DNA of 45,368 nucleotides from Candidatus Zixiibacteriota bacterium (GTDB taxonomy: Bacteria > Zixibacteria > MSB-5A5 > UBA10806). The notes under the pieces are model-generated. The model made no database searches and was not told the origin of the DNA. It saw only the letters and a program-made list of their open reading frames with translations. The position numbers and the translations under genes are program-made. The stretch spans positions 1,985,207 through 2,030,574 of the forward strand of contig CP070742.1 in NCBI GenBank assembly GCA_020348065.1, given 5' to 3'. Of this stretch, positions 2,898-10,337 are shown piece after piece. The stretch's first letter is position 1. Each line of letters begins with the position of its first letter.

Positions 2898-3566
2898 CTA
2901 ATTGCCTTTGCTTCTTCTATTTATTGACTTCGCCAGTCCCAGCACTTCATGTCTGTGAATAGAGATAGACGCTTTGGACCGGTTTAAAACCTCCGCGATT
3001 TGCGAATCGGTCATGACCCTGTATTTTTGTTTTATGAACTTGTCCTCCTCTTCGGTATAAGGCCTTACGCTTCTTTTGGGACGGTTCAGGATTCTATTTC
3101 TGTGATGAGTTATTGAAATCAAAGATCGGTTCAGTTTATCCGCAATCGCCGTATCGGTCAACCGCCTGTAATTTTTCAAAATGTAGCTGTCTTCTTCATG
3201 AGTGAAGTTTTTTCTTTCGACTTTCTTCTTGCCGAGAACTATGAGCCTGCGATAGGTTACGGCATTGACCGGTTTCGAAATCGCCCTGGCGATATCGCCA
3301 TCGGTCATTTTCGAATAGTTTTTCGTAATAAAACTATCGTGTTCAGGACGAAAATCGAATTTGCTTTTCCTTTTCTTCGGTGATTGCTTTAACGCCTCCT
3401 GTCTGTTTCTTCTTTTTATCTCCAACGTTATGAATATCATCTGAACATATTGACGGCTGCACCCATAGACCTTTCCGATATCGGTCAAGGACATTTTGCT
3501 GTCGTAGTACATTCTAACCAATTTATCTTTTTCGCGTAACATTTTTTGTTTAACGCTTTCTGCCAT
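2898..3566 (-). CDS. DNA-binding-like protein with three tandem 49-residue SANT/Myb-like HTH repeats
   Basis: 222 very basic residues. Residues ~8-50 form a helix-turn-helix of the sigma-region-4/resolvase kind (LTDIGKVYGCSRQYVQMI). After a basic linker, three units start at residues 72, 121 and 170, exactly 49 residues apart, each with the pattern [FY]-x4-D-x-[FY]-I-x3-Y-x3-TD-x2-IA-x17-L. Aligned positions are D77/126/175, Y84/133/182, TD88/137/186 and L111/160/209. Each unit has the three-helix look of SANT/Myb-like DNA-binding modules, and the second and third carry LNRS at the turn. It starts 32 bp after glmS with GAGAGGAG before the ATG at 3566, so it is probably co-transcribed with glmM-glmS. 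A sequence-specific DNA-binding role is inferred; the target is unknown. Confidence 0.7.
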   Translation of the reverse strand: MAESVKQKMLREKDKLVRMYYDSKMSLTDIGKVYGCSRQYVQMIFITLEIKRRNRQEALKQSPKKRKSKFDFRPEHDSFITKNYSKMTDGDIARAISKPVNAVTYRRLIVLGKKKVERKNFTHEEDSYILKNYRRLTDTAIADKLNRSLISITHHRNRILNRPKRSVRPYTEEEDKFIKQKYRVMTDSQIAEVLNRSKASISIHRHEVLGLAKSINRRSKGN

Positions 3567-3597: not shown

Positions 3598-5424
3598 TTA
3601 TTCCACAGTTACGCTTTTCGCGAGATTCCTGGGCTGATCTACATCGCAGTTCCTCAATTCGGCAATATGATACGCCAGAAGCTGCAATGGAATTATGCCG
3701 ATTAAAGGTAGAACAAAACTGTTTACCCTTGGTAAATATATAACATCATCCGCTATTTCCGCAATCTTTTTATCTCCTTTTGTAGCGACCGCGACAATCC
3801 TGCCCCTCCGGGCCTTGATTTCCTCCATATTCGACAAAATCTTGTTGTATACGGAATCCTGCGGAGCCATAACAACTACCGGCATATTGTCATCAATAAG
3901 GGCGATGGGGCCATGTTTCATTTCCGCTGCAGGATAACCCTCTGCGTGTATATAACTTATCTCCTTAAGTTTCAGAGCTCCCTCGAGAGCGATGGGGAAA
4001 TTAACACCCCTGCCCAGGTAAAGGAAATTATTCATATTGTAATACTTTTCAGCGAGTTCTTTGATACGATCATTAAGCTCTAAAACGTCCTTAACCCTGT
4101 CCGGAACCTCGCTAATAGCTCTCAGGAGCTTTTCTCCCTCATCAAATGACATGGAACGCATCCTGGCCAGGAGTATCGTAATAAGCGATAGTACCATCAT
4201 CTGCGATGTGAAAGCTTTTGTGGATGCCACCCCGATTTCAGGTCCGGCATGAATATAAACTCCCCCGTCCGATTCCCTGGCGATCGTAGAACCGACGACG
4301 TTGCAGATTCCAAGGCACGTGGCTCCTTTTCGTCTGGCTTCCCTCATGGCCGCCAAGGTATCGGCGGTTTCTCCGGATTGCGAGATCACAAAAACGATGG
4401 TACCGGGGTCAATGATGGGGCTTCTGTACCGAAACTCCGAGGCATATTCGATTTCCACCGGTATTCTCGCATATTCTTCAATCAAATACTCCCCGAGCAA
4501 ACCGGCGTGCCAGCTGGTGCCGCAGGCCGTGATAATAATTCTTTTAATATGATGAAGCTCATCATACTGAAGGTTTAATCCGTTTAATCGAGCCGTAGCC
4601 TCCTCGAAATTCAGCCTGCCCCTCATGGCGTTTTTCAAGGTCTCCGGCTGTTCGAAAATCTCCTTTAACATAAAATGATCGAAACCGCCCTTTTCTATCA
4701 TATCGAGGTTCCAGGATATCTCTTCCAGATGGGGCGTAACCTCAACCTCCTCGAGAGTGGAGATTGAAAAACTGTCTGCGGTGACTTCGGCCAACTCTCC
4801 GTCCTCAAGATAAACCACTCTGTTCGTATAGCGGAGGAGAGCGGCGACGTCCGAGGCGACCAGGTTCTCTCCATCCCCACATCCGATCACTATAGGCGAT
4901 CCCTGCCTGGCCGCCACGATCACATCGGGATTATCGGATGATAATACCGCTATCCCGTAGGTCCCCTCAACCTGGCTTAACGCTCTCCTGACAGCCTGCA
5001 ACAGATTCCCGTTATGATATTCCTCTATCAGATGAGCCAGCACTTCAGTGTCGGTTTCCGTTTTAAAAATGCGGCCCTGACGTTTTAAGACTTCGCGCAA
5101 CGCCGAGTAGTTCTCAATAATTCCGTTATGAACCACCGCTATTCGCCCGGTCATCCCGGTATGCGGATGGGCGTTGGCATCGTTGGGCTCGCCGTGCGTC
5201 GCCCAGCGCGTATGGCCGATCCCGACATTCGCCTGATAATCTTCGGCTTCAGTGCATGAGATAAGGGCGGGCAACTTGCCGGCGCTCTTGCAGACAACGA
5301 CGCCATCCCTTTCCAACAGCGCGATGCCCGTTGAATCATAGCCGCGATACTCCAGCCGTTTCAAACCCTCCATCAATATGGGATAGGCTTTTCTGGGACC
5401 GATATATCCGACAATGCCGCACAT
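3598..5424 (-). CDS. glmS: Glutamine--fructose-6-phosphate aminotransferase (isomerizing)
   Basis: 608 residues, the normal family length. It converts fructose-6-phosphate and glutamine to glucosamine-6-phosphate and glutamate, the first committed step toward UDP-GlcNAc. The mature N-terminal nucleophile is Cys2 (MCGIVGYIG), and the glutaminase domain shows HTRWATHG and HNGIIEN. Two SIS sugar-isomerase domains follow, with GCGTSWHAG and SQSGETADT in the first, and the chain ends with the conserved PRNLAKSVTVE. AAGGAGA precedes the ATG at 5424. It lies 12 bp after glmM, whose enzyme acts next. No glmS ribozyme is possible in that 12-bp gap. Confidence 0.98.
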   Translation of the reverse strand: MCGIVGYIGPRKAYPILMEGLKRLEYRGYDSTGIALLERDGVVVCKSAGKLPALISCTEAEDYQANVGIGHTRWATHGEPNDANAHPHTGMTGRIAVVHNGIIENYSALREVLKRQGRIFKTETDTEVLAHLIEEYHNGNLLQAVRRALSQVEGTYGIAVLSSDNPDVIVAARQGSPIVIGCGDGENLVASDVAALLRYTNRVVYLEDGELAEVTADSFSISTLEEVEVTPHLEEISWNLDMIEKGGFDHFMLKEIFEQPETLKNAMRGRLNFEEATARLNGLNLQYDELHHIKRIIITACGTSWHAGLLGEYLIEEYARIPVEIEYASEFRYRSPIIDPGTIVFVISQSGETADTLAAMREARRKGATCLGICNVVGSTIARESDGGVYIHAGPEIGVASTKAFTSQMMVLSLITILLARMRSMSFDEGEKLLRAISEVPDRVKDVLELNDRIKELAEKYYNMNNFLYLGRGVNFPIALEGALKLKEISYIHAEGYPAAEMKHGPIALIDDNMPVVVMAPQDSVYNKILSNMEEIKARRGRIVAVATKGDKKIAEIADDVIYLPRVNSFVLPLIGIIPLQLLAYHIAELRNCDVDQPRNLAKSVTVE

Positions 5425-5436
5425 TGAAAATCTCCT

Positions 5437-6783
5437 TTATTTCCGAATAACCGATTTTACGGTTCCGATCAGGCTTCTGGCGGTCTTATAATCGCGCGCT
5501 TCCGAGATAACCCTCGTTACGGGTTCCGTGTTAGACGCTCTGATCTGAACCCACCAGTCTTTACCCAAAATCTTTAAGCCGTCAACTCTGTTTATTTTAT
5601 CGCCCCTGAAAGCATTTTCAATAGCGCTCTTTTTCCTTTCGACCTCAGATAACGCCAGATTCAATTTTGTTTTAACCATAAAATATCGCGGAAGTTCCAT
5701 TACGAGTTCGCTTATTTTCAACTCGGAAGAAGCCAGATATTGAATTATTACAGCGGCCGCCAGAAAAGCGTCTCGCCCCCAGTGCAGCCGGGGATATATC
5801 AACCCGCCGTTGCCTTCTCCTCCCACGACGCCTCCGACCCGCCGGAGTTTCTCGGTGACATTTCTCTCGCCCACTTTTGTACGGTAGATTTTCACTCCAG
5901 CTTCTCCGGCGACAGAATCGTTCAGCATGGAGCTCGAAAGATTAACCGCCACGGGCCCTGCTGTTCTGGATAGAATATATCTTGAACAAAGAGCCAGAGT
6001 ATATTCTTCTCCGATGGGTTGCCCCTTTTCGGAGACTATGGCCAGACGATCGGCGTCGGGATCAAATGCAAACCCGACATCGGCTCTATGCCGCTTTACC
6101 GCCTTCGATAGATCGGTGAGATTCTCCGGAATCGGCTCGGGTCCTCTGGGAAACTCGCCGGTGGGAATGAAGTGAATCAACTTATAATCAACTCCCAGTT
6201 TCTTAAAGAAACTATCGGCCATATTGCATGCCGCCCCGCCGCCGCAATCAGCTACGATTTTCAGCCTGCGTTTTTTTATCAAAGATTGTGAAATTATATC
6301 AAGCTTTATAATTTTATTGATGTGATGATCGATCCATTTATCCTCAAATGTCGCCTTTCCGACAGAGTCCCAGCCACAATCTCTAAATCGTCGAGAATTG
6401 AAAAGCCGCTGTATCTTTCGCCCCTGGCTTTCGGAAAGAAATATCCCCTCCTCTCCAATTAATTTCAGAGCGTTATATTGTATGGGATTATGACTTGCGG
6501 TTACCGCCGCTCCTCCGCTGAACCCTCCGTCCCGGACCGCCATCTCAATCGTAGGAGTGGAGCAGATTCCGATATCGACAACATCGCATCCGGAGGAAAG
6601 CAAACCGGAAATAACCGCCGAAGTGATCATAGGGCCGGTTTTTCGGGTATCTCTTCCTATCACCACTCTGCCTTTCTTTAGAAAGGCGCCGAAAGCCCTG
6701 CCGTAATTAAGCGCCGTCTCCGAAGTAAGAGTTTTTCCGATAATTCCTCTAATGCCGGAAACGGAAATTAAGAGTTCTTTCAA
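5437..6783 (-). CDS. glmM: Phosphoglucosamine mutase (archaeal/Bacteroidota-type GlmM)
   Basis: 448 residues of the alpha-D-phosphohexomutase family. The phospho-serine loop is TASHNP (Ser97), the Mg-binding loop is DPDADRLAIV, the sugar-binding loop is GGEGNGG, and the phosphate-binding loop near the C-terminus is RASNTEPVTRV. The GEGNGG loop is the form seen in archaeal GlmM and related FCB enzymes rather than the GEQSGH of E. coli GlmM. Interconversion of glucosamine-6-P and -1-P is inferred mainly from glmS lying next to it; phosphomannomutase activity cannot be excluded. The start is a TTG at 6783, chosen because AAGGGG sits 5 nt before it and the family N-terminus (SVSGIRGI) follows directly. 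Confidence 0.9.
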   Translation of the reverse strand: MKELLISVSGIRGIIGKTLTSETALNYGRAFGAFLKKGRVVIGRDTRKTGPMITSAVISGLLSSGCDVVDIGICSTPTIEMAVRDGGFSGGAAVTASHNPIQYNALKLIGEEGIFLSESQGRKIQRLFNSRRFRDCGWDSVGKATFEDKWIDHHINKIIKLDIISQSLIKKRRLKIVADCGGGAACNMADSFFKKLGVDYKLIHFIPTGEFPRGPEPIPENLTDLSKAVKRHRADVGFAFDPDADRLAIVSEKGQPIGEEYTLALCSRYILSRTAGPVAVNLSSSMLNDSVAGEAGVKIYRTKVGERNVTEKLRRVGGVVGGEGNGGLIYPRLHWGRDAFLAAAVIIQYLASSELKISELVMELPRYFMVKTKLNLALSEVERKKSAIENAFRGDKINRVDGLKILGKDWWVQIRASNTEPVTRVISEARDYKTARSLIGTVKSVIRK

Positions 6784-6832: not shown

Positions 6833-6861
6833 ATAATACAATCGATCTCCAGGTCTGTCAA
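6833..6861 (-). promoter_or_regulatory. Sigma70-type promoter of glmM-glmS
   Basis: On the minus strand a perfect -35 TTGACA (6856-6861) is separated by 17 bp from TATTAT (6833-6838). Transcription should begin near 6826, giving a leader of about 43 nt before the TTG start of glmM. This is the best promoter match in the window. Confidence 0.8.
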
Positions 6862-8354: not shown

Positions 8355-10337
8355 CTAAAACCTCCCCTTCTCAATATTTACGGATAAAATTCGATCTCCT
8401 ATTTCAATTCTATCGAGCGTATCCCACCCCTCGATAACCTGCCCGAACGCGGTATATTCGCCATCGAGATGAGGTTGATCGGAAAGACATATGAAAAACT
8501 GAGAGCTGCCGGTATTACGTCCCGAGGTCGCCATTCCGATTGTCCCTCTTTTGAATCTGATGGGATTTATCTCTTCGCGGATCGTGTATCCCGGTCCGCC
8601 CCAGCCGTCCGCCCGGGGGCATCCCCCCTGCACCACGAAATTTTGAACGACCCTGTGAAACGTCAGATCGTTATAAAACCCTCTTTCAATAAGCCGGATA
8701 AAATTGGCCGCTGTCCTGGGAGCGGCAGCAGTATCCAGTTTAATCTTTATGATACCCCGCTGCGTCTCCATAATGGTTACCGCGTCCATTTTCGTTAAAT
8801 CCCTTAGATTTTTAAAATCCTCTTCGCTGAAATCGATATCAAATGTGCCGGGATCAAAATTTTCCGGGGCCAAACTTCCCAGAGCGGAGGAAGCGTCCTG
8901 CCTGACAATCCGATTTTGATGGTTCAGGAATTTCTTGATAGCATTTAATGCCGTAATCCCGATTTCGGTCGTATCGACAAAATTACCGATGGCGGAGACA
9001 AGAGAGCGGGCAAAATCCACATCGTCCGTTTCAACATTCTTCCGTGCCGCTTCGGCCAATATATCCAGAGCTTCATAATTGTCGGATGATCCGAGAACGT
9101 CTGCGGCGATTGATCTCACCACTGTATCATCCGAGCCGTTCAGGGCCGCCTTGATTATATCGATATTTCGATTTACGGGATAATTACCCAGTCCTTCTAT
9201 TACCGCGGCTTTCACCCTGTCGTCGTCGTCCTCGAGCATCAAACGGAGCTGTTTTAACGATCTACTGCTTTTCACCCTGCCCAGAGACCTGGCCACCTCG
9301 GCCCTTACCTGCCATTTGTCTTCCGACTTTAATTTTATCAACGTGTTAGTAGGAGAACTCTTATTAACCTCCGGCAAAGCCGATATGGCCGCCAGCTGAA
9401 CCTGTAGCGAGGAATCATGAAGATATTTTTCGACGACTTTCCTGCTTTTAGCGTTTCCGATTTGACCCAGCGATAATATTATTACTCTTTTGAGACCGTT
9501 ATCATCTGTACTGGCGAGAATCCGCTCGAGTCCCTCACGGCCAAGGCCTACCCTTCCCAAAGATCGGATCAACTCGATCTTTGCCGAACGGGCGAGAAGA
9601 TCGAAATGTTTTTCAAAAATGTCCAGGATAGCGGTTGAATCCCCGCTCGATCCCAAACCCCTGGCCGCAACGGCCGCAGTTTCGATGTAGACGCTGTCGC
9701 CTGATTTTCGATTTTCAAATACCTTTACAAACTGCGAAACGCAAGAATCAGGGGCGAGTCTAAACATAGAATAGACGGCCCCATACAATGCTTTCCCGGA
9801 AGCGCTGCCGGCAAGCAGACGCAAATCACCGATCGAGGAACTATCCGCAATACGCCATAAGGCCAGAGCCGCTTCGTATGCTTCCTCGTCCTGTTTTTTT
9901 AAAAACGGCTTGATATACGGAGCCGCTTTTCTATCGCCGATTTTACCGAGCGCTTCTATCGACATTAACCGGGAATCAAAATCCTCTATGTGTAATACAG
10001 CCGCCAGGGAATTCAAAGCGGCAGTGTCTTTGATTTCGCCAATAGCAAAAATCGCCGCTTCCCTTATGGCCTTATCGGTATGGCCGCAAAGCTCGGAGAG
10101 ACGATACATGAACCTGTCATCCCGGACTATTCCGCATGTTTTTGCCGCCGCTTTAATTAAATAGCTATCGTCGCATGAAAGAGCGAGATCCATGATGACC
10201 GAATCTACCGCGCCTTGCTCTTCCATTTTTAAAAGTTCATAGGCAAAATCAACCTCAGGGACAATTTCTTTATTGCCCGAAGAACAGGCTATCGTTGCCG
10301 CGAGAAGAAAAATTCCAGCTCGAATGTGTTTAATCAT
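8355..10337 (-). CDS. HEAT-repeat lipoprotein fused to a cyclophilin-type peptidyl-prolyl isomerase
   Basis: 660 residues. The N-terminus has a short signal with a possible lipobox TIAC (Cys18; the -3 Thr is atypical), suggesting export and lipid anchoring. Residues ~35-500 are a run of HEAT/PBS-lyase-like helical repeats with recurring units such as AAIFAIGEIKD, SIEALGKIGDR and VIEGLGNYPVN. Residues ~515-660 are a cyclophilin domain with active-site features FHRVVQNFVVQGG, GMATSGRNTGSSQFF and QPHLDGEYTAFG; the catalytic Arg, Phe, Gln and His positions are kept. It probably acts as an envelope chaperone whose HEAT scaffold selects partners. First gene of a three-gene operon with a strong promoter just before the ATG and no Shine-Dalgarno. 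Confidence 0.9.
   Translation of the reverse strand: MIKHIRAGIFLLAATIACSSGNKEIVPEVDFAYELLKMEEQGAVDSVIMDLALSCDDSYLIKAAAKTCGIVRDDRFMYRLSELCGHTDKAIREAAIFAIGEIKDTAALNSLAAVLHIEDFDSRLMSIEALGKIGDRKAAPYIKPFLKKQDEEAYEAALALWRIADSSSIGDLRLLAGSASGKALYGAVYSMFRLAPDSCVSQFVKVFENRKSGDSVYIETAAVAARGLGSSGDSTAILDIFEKHFDLLARSAKIELIRSLGRVGLGREGLERILASTDDNGLKRVIILSLGQIGNAKSRKVVEKYLHDSSLQVQLAAISALPEVNKSSPTNTLIKLKSEDKWQVRAEVARSLGRVKSSRSLKQLRLMLEDDDDRVKAAVIEGLGNYPVNRNIDIIKAALNGSDDTVVRSIAADVLGSSDNYEALDILAEAARKNVETDDVDFARSLVSAIGNFVDTTEIGITALNAIKKFLNHQNRIVRQDASSALGSLAPENFDPGTFDIDFSEEDFKNLRDLTKMDAVTIMETQRGIIKIKLDTAAAPRTAANFIRLIERGFYNDLTFHRVVQNFVVQGGCPRADGWGGPGYTIREEINPIRFKRGTIGMATSGRNTGSSQFFICLSDQPHLDGEYTAFGQVIEGWDTLDRIEIGDRILSVNIEKGRF

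Follow-up and report, generated by a model that had tools for sequence, protein, structure and literature searches.

A multi-helix-turn-helix gene with three Myb-like units directly after glmM-glmS in one order of Zixibacteria

Directly behind the amino-sugar genes glmM and glmS, the window (the whole 45,368-nucleotide stretch of a Candidatus Zixiibacteriota genome analysed here) encodes a 222-aa protein of helix-turn-helix (HTH) and Myb-like modules (2898..3566, minus strand), which we refer to as the multi-HTH protein and which was characterised from its open-reading frame (ORF), Pfam and PHROG matches, orthologues and a structural model. The new part is the locus: the gene stands directly after glmM-glmS across one order of Zixibacteria. 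We give an even chance to the reading that its product is a chromosomal transcription factor whose gene closes a glmM-glmS-regulator operon and is kept in that single order. Most likely the gene was vertically kept, built from modules of the mobile-element type and co-expressed with amino-sugar synthesis, on which its product perhaps acts by feedback.

Position behind glmM-glmS and distribution of the gene

In the window the gene starts 31 bases past glmS (glutamine--fructose-6-phosphate transaminase; 3598..5424, minus strand; NCBIfam equivalog TIGR01135, 836.6 bits against a cut-off of 418), which lies directly upstream of it and has one match in its own genome. Ahead of glmS is a glmM-type phosphoglucosamine mutase gene (5437..6783, minus strand; NCBIfam equivalog TIGR03990, 510.7 bits against a cut-off of 439), which on synteny as well would be the first gene of the proposed operon. 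The genome (3.74 Mb, a single contig) holds the multi-HTH gene in single copy. Just upstream of glmM and on the same strand, the window encodes a metallo-beta-lactamase-fold protein and an adenosine-specific kinase (PF04008; 6880-8374, minus strand), a pair which precedes glmM in the related genomes G001 and G002 too, and at 8355-10337 (minus strand) it encodes a 660-aa protein in which HEAT repeats are followed, in the same chain, by a cyclophilin domain at the C-terminus.

The gene is present in seven of the 58 genomes searched as relatives (its own genome, G000, included). These carriers are seven of the nine genomes of the window's order and span two families and six genera, with identity down to 41%. 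A profile search of a phylum sample of 132 genomes returned seven matches at 1e-5 and none in the other 125, whilst a class sample of 132 genomes gave ten matches at E<=0.001, comprising the seven orthologues and three weak matches to different proteins. These three, in G023, G112 and G122 (E 1e-4 to 1e-3), lie on contigs other than those of glmS and were rejected as orthologues, being either single-unit, basic-tailed proteins or of LAGLIDADG type. The G023 protein (L024 1423-1722, minus strand, 99 aa) and the G112 protein (L026 1354-1800, plus strand, 148 aa) come from two other families of the class, each carries a single Myb-like unit in Lys/Arg-rich, histone-H1-like tails, and both are perhaps nucleoid proteins built on that unit. 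The 425-aa protein of G122 (L025 1273-2550, plus strand) has N-terminal HTHs resembling the N-terminal module of the window protein, as well as a LAGLIDADG_3 match (23.3 bits, cut-off 22.5), and judged by its sequence is likely a homing endonuclease.

The glmS stretches of 15 genomes of other orders yielded no relative of the gene by tblastn at 1e-4, with just 420 bases of sequence past glmS to search in one of them, G023. In 12 of the 15 genomes, as in the non-carrier G003 of the window's order, glmM stands in the stretch before glmS; the arrangement of glmM near glmS is older than the multi-HTH gene's position there. A scan of genome contigs with strict peptide patterns, which says little on distant phyla, found one locus (CP070813.1, 93% identity), which is that of G001; bacterial phyla beyond the window's own were otherwise covered only via the phage and plasmid collections.

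All seven genomes with the gene have the order glmM-glmS-gene on one strand. The three genes share one contig in G000, G001, G005, G006 and G008, in G007 the end of the contig truncates glmM, and the multi-HTH gene is split between two contig ends in G002. The original prediction had taken the placement after glmM-glmS as a hint of a link to amino-sugar supply or of a shared transcript, and had proposed that the adjacency of glmS and the HTH gene be checked in related genomes; kept in every carrier in both families, the link is far firmer than a hint. The gene is absent from two genomes of the order, G004 (69% complete), where glmS was not found either, and G003, which has both glmM and glmS. 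As G003, from the same family, keeps glmM-glmS without the gene, the gene is dispensable there. Sequence likeness between genomes drops right past the glmS stop and does not resume in G003, and downstream of the gene lie a glycosyltransferase (G000, G001), a large ORF of shared type (G007, G008) or another gene (G006). The G008 assembly also holds a second glmS (L055, G008:C169), partial and cut by the contig end, with no HTH gene behind it; with 9% contamination in this assembly the copy is possibly foreign.

The multi-HTH gene is under purifying selection. Between G000 and G001 its dN/dS is ~0.050 (0.043/0.862), with 0.032 for glmS and 0.113 for glmM, values which are rough because dS is near 1.

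Repeat architecture and predicted fold

In an ungapped self-comparison the 222-aa protein scored 191 at an offset of 49 residues, the top offset of the whole scan, and 72 at an offset of 98, with scores of 8-20 at offsets 46-48, 50, 51, 97 and 99 and a maximum of 49 at any scanned offset over 300 residue shuffles. The units start at F72, F121 and Y170, a constant step of 49 residues. Delimited by the offset-49 self-match and the model helices, all on the minus strand, unit 1 covers ORF residues 72-120 (3207..3353), unit 2 residues 121-169 (3060..3206) and unit 3 residues 170-218 (2913..3059). Of the three exact 49-residue repeats described in the original prediction, the exactness thus holds for the spacing and not for the sequence, as 15-22 of 49 residues are identical between units (1 vs 2, 16; 1 vs 3, 15; 2 vs 3, 22). 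Aromatic residues stand at unit position 1 and twelve residues later (F72/Y84, F121/Y133 and Y170/Y182, from the sequence).

The N-terminal HTH, also predicted as a separate module, was recovered by Pfam as HTH_23 (5.7e-9) and Sigma70_r4 (7.5e-6), each above its cut-off; it occupies ORF residues 5-48 (model residues 4-47; 3423..3554, minus strand) and is of sigma-70-region-4/HTH_23 type. An NCBIfam scan of the protein gave nothing close to any model's cut-off. In the model, ORF residues ~5 to 218 are taken up by the HTH, the Myb-like units and linkers, those joining the Myb-like units being short and basic, and the chain stops four residues past unit 3. The protein is strongly basic (pI 10.3; 53 K+R vs 25 D+E). 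No ligand-binding domain was seen in it, and nuclease domains (HNH, GIY-YIG, LAGLIDADG) were absent from the Pfam matches at E<=1 in all seven orthologues, the same library detecting LAGLIDADG_3 in the G122 protein.

An AlphaFold model was built from seven orthologues with an input beginning at ORF residue 2, so that model numbers equal ORF numbers minus one, and reached a mean pLDDT of 82.9 and a pTM of 0.32; at this pTM the model gives neither the relative placement of the modules nor the way in which the units would lie on DNA. The N-terminal module has four model helices (4-10, 12-21, 26-33, 37-47), with a further helix at 54-60. The original prediction was made to hang on a three-helix fold in each repeat, and three helices are present in every unit of the model (unit 1, 73-82, 88-94 and 99-109; unit 2, 122-131, 137-144 and 148-158; unit 3, 171-180, 186-193 and 197-207), supporting the prediction of each repeat as a Myb/SANT-like three-helix unit.

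The units differ in how well they are conserved. Leaving out G007, mean identity between genomes is 71% for unit 2, 66% for unit 3 and 57% for unit 1; unit 2 is the best-conserved unit, with a reading helix nearly invariant across orthologues. Differently numbered units compared across genomes share 35-45% identity (G007 again left out), below that of same-numbered units, which dates the triplication to before the compared genomes diverged. Unit 3 of G007 shows in-frame decay, retaining a few key residues, and by eye the other frames hold no better match; the full set of three is thus not strictly required in every genome.

With the AlphaFold model as query, Foldseek gave no match at E<=0.001 among 350 against the PDB, and 18 of 865 against viral models (ten nameless, four uncharacterised, two endonucleases, one D5 protein and one HTH protein). 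By sequence, the best match of the whole protein among solved structures was the UPF0122 protein 1s7o (E 0.069, to the N-terminal HTH only), and a single-unit profile gave a best E of 0.27. VIA-align was used to re-examine 539 chains against the model. The top-scoring single-domain structure for single units was the bacterial GcrA, whose DNA-binding domain overlays unit 3 (5yiv, in complex with DNA; Z 7.0, rmsd 1.1 over 43 residues, 28% identity) and unit 2 (5yiu; Z 7.4, rmsd 1.9 over 47 residues). A single c-Myb repeat (1mbg) fits unit 3 with Z 5.8 and rmsd 2.0 over 48 residues, and the c-Myb protein-DNA complex 1h8a gave Z 6.7 and rmsd 7.5 over 90. Units 1 and 2 taken jointly matched tandem Myb chains (c-Myb, plant R2R3 Myb and spliceosomes, the chains of the last of which we take to be the spliceosomal Myb protein Cef1/CDC5L) at Z ~5.7-7.7 and rmsd mostly 7-8. 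Small helical folds often reach a Z of ~7, and HTHs of homeodomain, paired-domain and transposase type score almost as high; the low rmsd of the single-unit overlays on the model is a stronger point than the Z values.

The units share the small three-helix fold with the DNA-binding domain of Caulobacter GcrA. GcrA itself is outlined in PMC7403470 as one DNA-binding domain and a sigma-interacting domain; the window protein differs in having three units and an extra HTH, and in having no sigma-interacting domain. We consider it improbable that the window protein is a sigma/RNA-polymerase cofactor of the GcrA kind, in which the Myb-like units would hold promoter DNA and the N-terminal HTH would contact the polymerase. 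Such a role would suit both the GcrA overlays and the Sigma70_r4 match above cut-off, yet the modules fill the protein and leave no space for a GcrA-type sigma-interacting domain, the likeness to sigma region 4 may be that of a generic HTH, and Pfam GcrA is absent from the matches of the window protein and its orthologues at E<=1.

Relatives among phage, plasmid and Myb proteins

The nearest sequence relatives found outside the order appear to be phage D5-like regulators and multi-unit plasmid proteins. The window protein matched PHROG 323 (D5-like transcriptional regulator) at 7.2e-21; next came a transcription-regulator family (2.4e-14) and, after it, HNH-endonuclease families, among them phage HNH endonuclease profiles 1891 (7.6e-10) and 8446 (4.2e-9). 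Three scanned orthologues, of six others known, matched PHROG 323 at 8e-22, 2e-23 and 2e-22, whilst the control, an ECF sigma factor, did not list it at E<=0.01. The next PHROG 323 place in the window's genome outside the gene scored 4.8e-4; weak hits of this profile are meaningless, since 13 of 14 control genomes contain a match to it at E<=0.01. Known phage proteins belonging to PHROG 323 include T5 D5 (1.2e-71), annotated as DNA-binding and needed for DNA replication and late transcription, and gp65 of Listeria phage B054 (4.4e-61). By hhalign, our own profile gave no convincing alignment with T5 D5 (probability 16%, E 0.0016 over 87 columns) and aligned with B054 gp65 at a probability of 96.5%, covering the units only. 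A tblastn search of phage records at 0.001 with the window protein found Listeria phage B054 only (28.8% over 43%), and two viral-contig scans confirmed no relative. With the G008 orthologue as query, two plasmid proteins were found, one of 382 aa on pND6-1 of P. putida (27.9% identity over 90% of the query, E 2e-6) and one of 297 aa on pMLY91_6 of Priestia megaterium (29.4% identity over 69%, E 7e-9). The pND6-1 protein (L075 2204-3352) seems to consist wholly of Myb-like/HTH units, ~7 or 8 by eye.

The D5-like regulators T5 D5 and B054 gp65 resemble the window protein in carrying several Myb-like/HTH units in one small protein; the window gene differs from them in being chromosomal, single-copy and fixed after glmM-glmS, and B054 gp65 also differs in module order, its HTH standing behind its units. 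Both plasmid proteins are likewise bacterial, with tandem Myb-like units, and are annotated as hypothetical, but they are plasmid-borne, longer and of another unit number and order, and their loci, unlike that of the window gene, list no glmS among the neighbouring genes. As in the window protein, the three-helix units of eukaryotic c-Myb, plant R2R3 Myb and Cef1/CDC5L stand in tandem ~50 residues apart. The Myb signature has Trp at its aromatic core positions, where the window protein has Phe or Tyr, and the Pfam Myb/SANT families PF00249 and PF13921 were absent at E<=1 in all seven orthologues, in a scan that does detect both, above their cut-offs, in B054 gp65 and the Priestia plasmid protein. 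The label SANT/Myb-like given to the units in the original prediction is therefore sound as to fold, by the model and the GcrA and c-Myb overlays, and finds no counterpart in a Pfam Myb family. Its companion statement, which presented such arrays as a mark of eukaryotic factors and as seldom seen in bacteria, was misleading, the relatives being phage D5-like regulators and plasmid arrays and the best-scoring single-domain structure GcrA. There is precedent for tandem Myb-like units in prokaryotes, given the match to the D5-like profile and the comparable arrays of phage and plasmid proteins; such arrays recur in prokaryotic mobile DNA. Among these already known multi-unit DNA-binding proteins the multi-HTH protein is a host-fixed variant, and a role in amino-sugar supply is proposed for it. 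In the open-licence literature nothing was found on such a protein, and Myb was never paired with Zixibacteria or Zixiibacteriota.

Such relatives also suit a different origin, in which the gene is a mobile-element leftover after glmS with no host role, either the DNA-binding part of a homing endonuclease or phage protein or a Tn7-like cargo. The two HNH endonuclease profiles, the array-type relatives on phages and plasmids and the N-terminal HTHs of the LAGLIDADG-type protein of G122, which match our own profile weakly (E 2e-4), would fit this account, as would the position, for the site directly past glmS is the target of Tn7. We regard it as very unlikely nonetheless, in view of the lack of a detectable nuclease domain, the purifying selection, the maintenance of the gene at one place in two families and the lack of any Tn7-end-like site near it: the Tn7-end pattern matched three times, against 4.8 expected by chance, and never near the gene. 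A TnsA search of nine genomes gave one weak, sub-cut-off match, elsewhere in the window's genome, with its controls silent too, and a TniQ search was uninformative, none of its controls giving a match.

Transcription and proposed role

Upstream of glmM lies a putative sigma-70-like promoter (TTGACA-17-TATTAT; 6833..6861, minus strand) with 11 of 12 consensus positions, and an equally good site recurs in G001 and G002. The promoter score ahead of glmM is clear in G000, G001 and G002, where it is reached by <=1% of 200 shuffles, and weaker, no better than chance, in G005, G006 and G008 (9-14.5% of shuffles reach it), each of which still has TTGACA. On the gene's strand from glmM to the gene, one terminator-like site only was found, inside glmM (6093-6075); as the scan as a whole is at chance (6 sites found vs 6.4 expected) and lists none behind the gene, it supports one transcript weakly. 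Known controls of glmS are a ribozyme, the small RNAs GlmY/GlmZ and NagC; an Rfam search over the window returned no family at gathering scores, so no known glmS ribozyme or riboswitch lies in it.

A shared operator upstream of glmM was sought in G000, G002, G005, G006 and G008, leaving out G001 as too close and G007 as having no glmM start. Beyond the promoter hexamers none was found, shuffles equalling the best candidate in 36-55 of 60 across the five genomes, a result weak both ways because the sample is small and diverged. The lack of a common operator would suit a DNA-binding protein of global or nucleoid type, whose regulon is broad or unrelated and which simply draws its expression from a steady housekeeping operon, glmM-glmS not being its target. 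We hold this to be possible but doubtful. The gene stands last in the operon, the protein is very basic, and the single Myb-like units with histone-like basic tails in other families (L024, L026) imply that nucleoid-type use of the unit may occur in the class; the window protein, however, has no long basic tail, the near-invariant reading helix of unit 2 suits sequence-specific reading, and the same post-glmS position in two families and six genera exceeds what simple expression would need.

For a transcription factor belonging to the glmM-glmS operon, we infer DNA binding by the protein, a single transcript, an operator and a direction of control. From the promoter ahead of glmM, the multi-HTH protein would be made together with GlmM and GlmS. 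A single chain would offer four DNA-reading helices, one in the sigma-region-4-like HTH and three in the Myb/GcrA-like units, and with four readers, and units 49 residues apart on short linkers, should by our estimate cover ~25-40 bp of duplex, which it would bind as a monomer and with high specificity. It would then tune transcription of the operon, and possibly of other cell-wall genes, to the operon's expression level; with no ligand-binding domain seen, any signal would work via dosage or a partner. A shared operon is in itself no proof that the protein acts on glmM-glmS. A fuller version, which we put forward tentatively and with well under even confidence, is that an array of tandem Myb-like units, of the phage/plasmid type, entered one order of Zixibacteria and became established there as a dedicated transcription factor for the synthesis of UDP-GlcNAc precursors, working without a ligand domain and feeding back on glmM-glmS.

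If true, this feedback loop would differ from the established glmS controls, which are RNA-based or of NagC type, in a phylum, the Zixibacteria, where to our knowledge little gene regulation has been studied. The locus presents a clear case of a predicted multi-unit DNA reader of phage/plasmid type that has become a conserved part of the host chromosome next to a core cell-wall operon, and the single chain with four predicted readers may serve as a natural model of long-site DNA recognition by tandem units.
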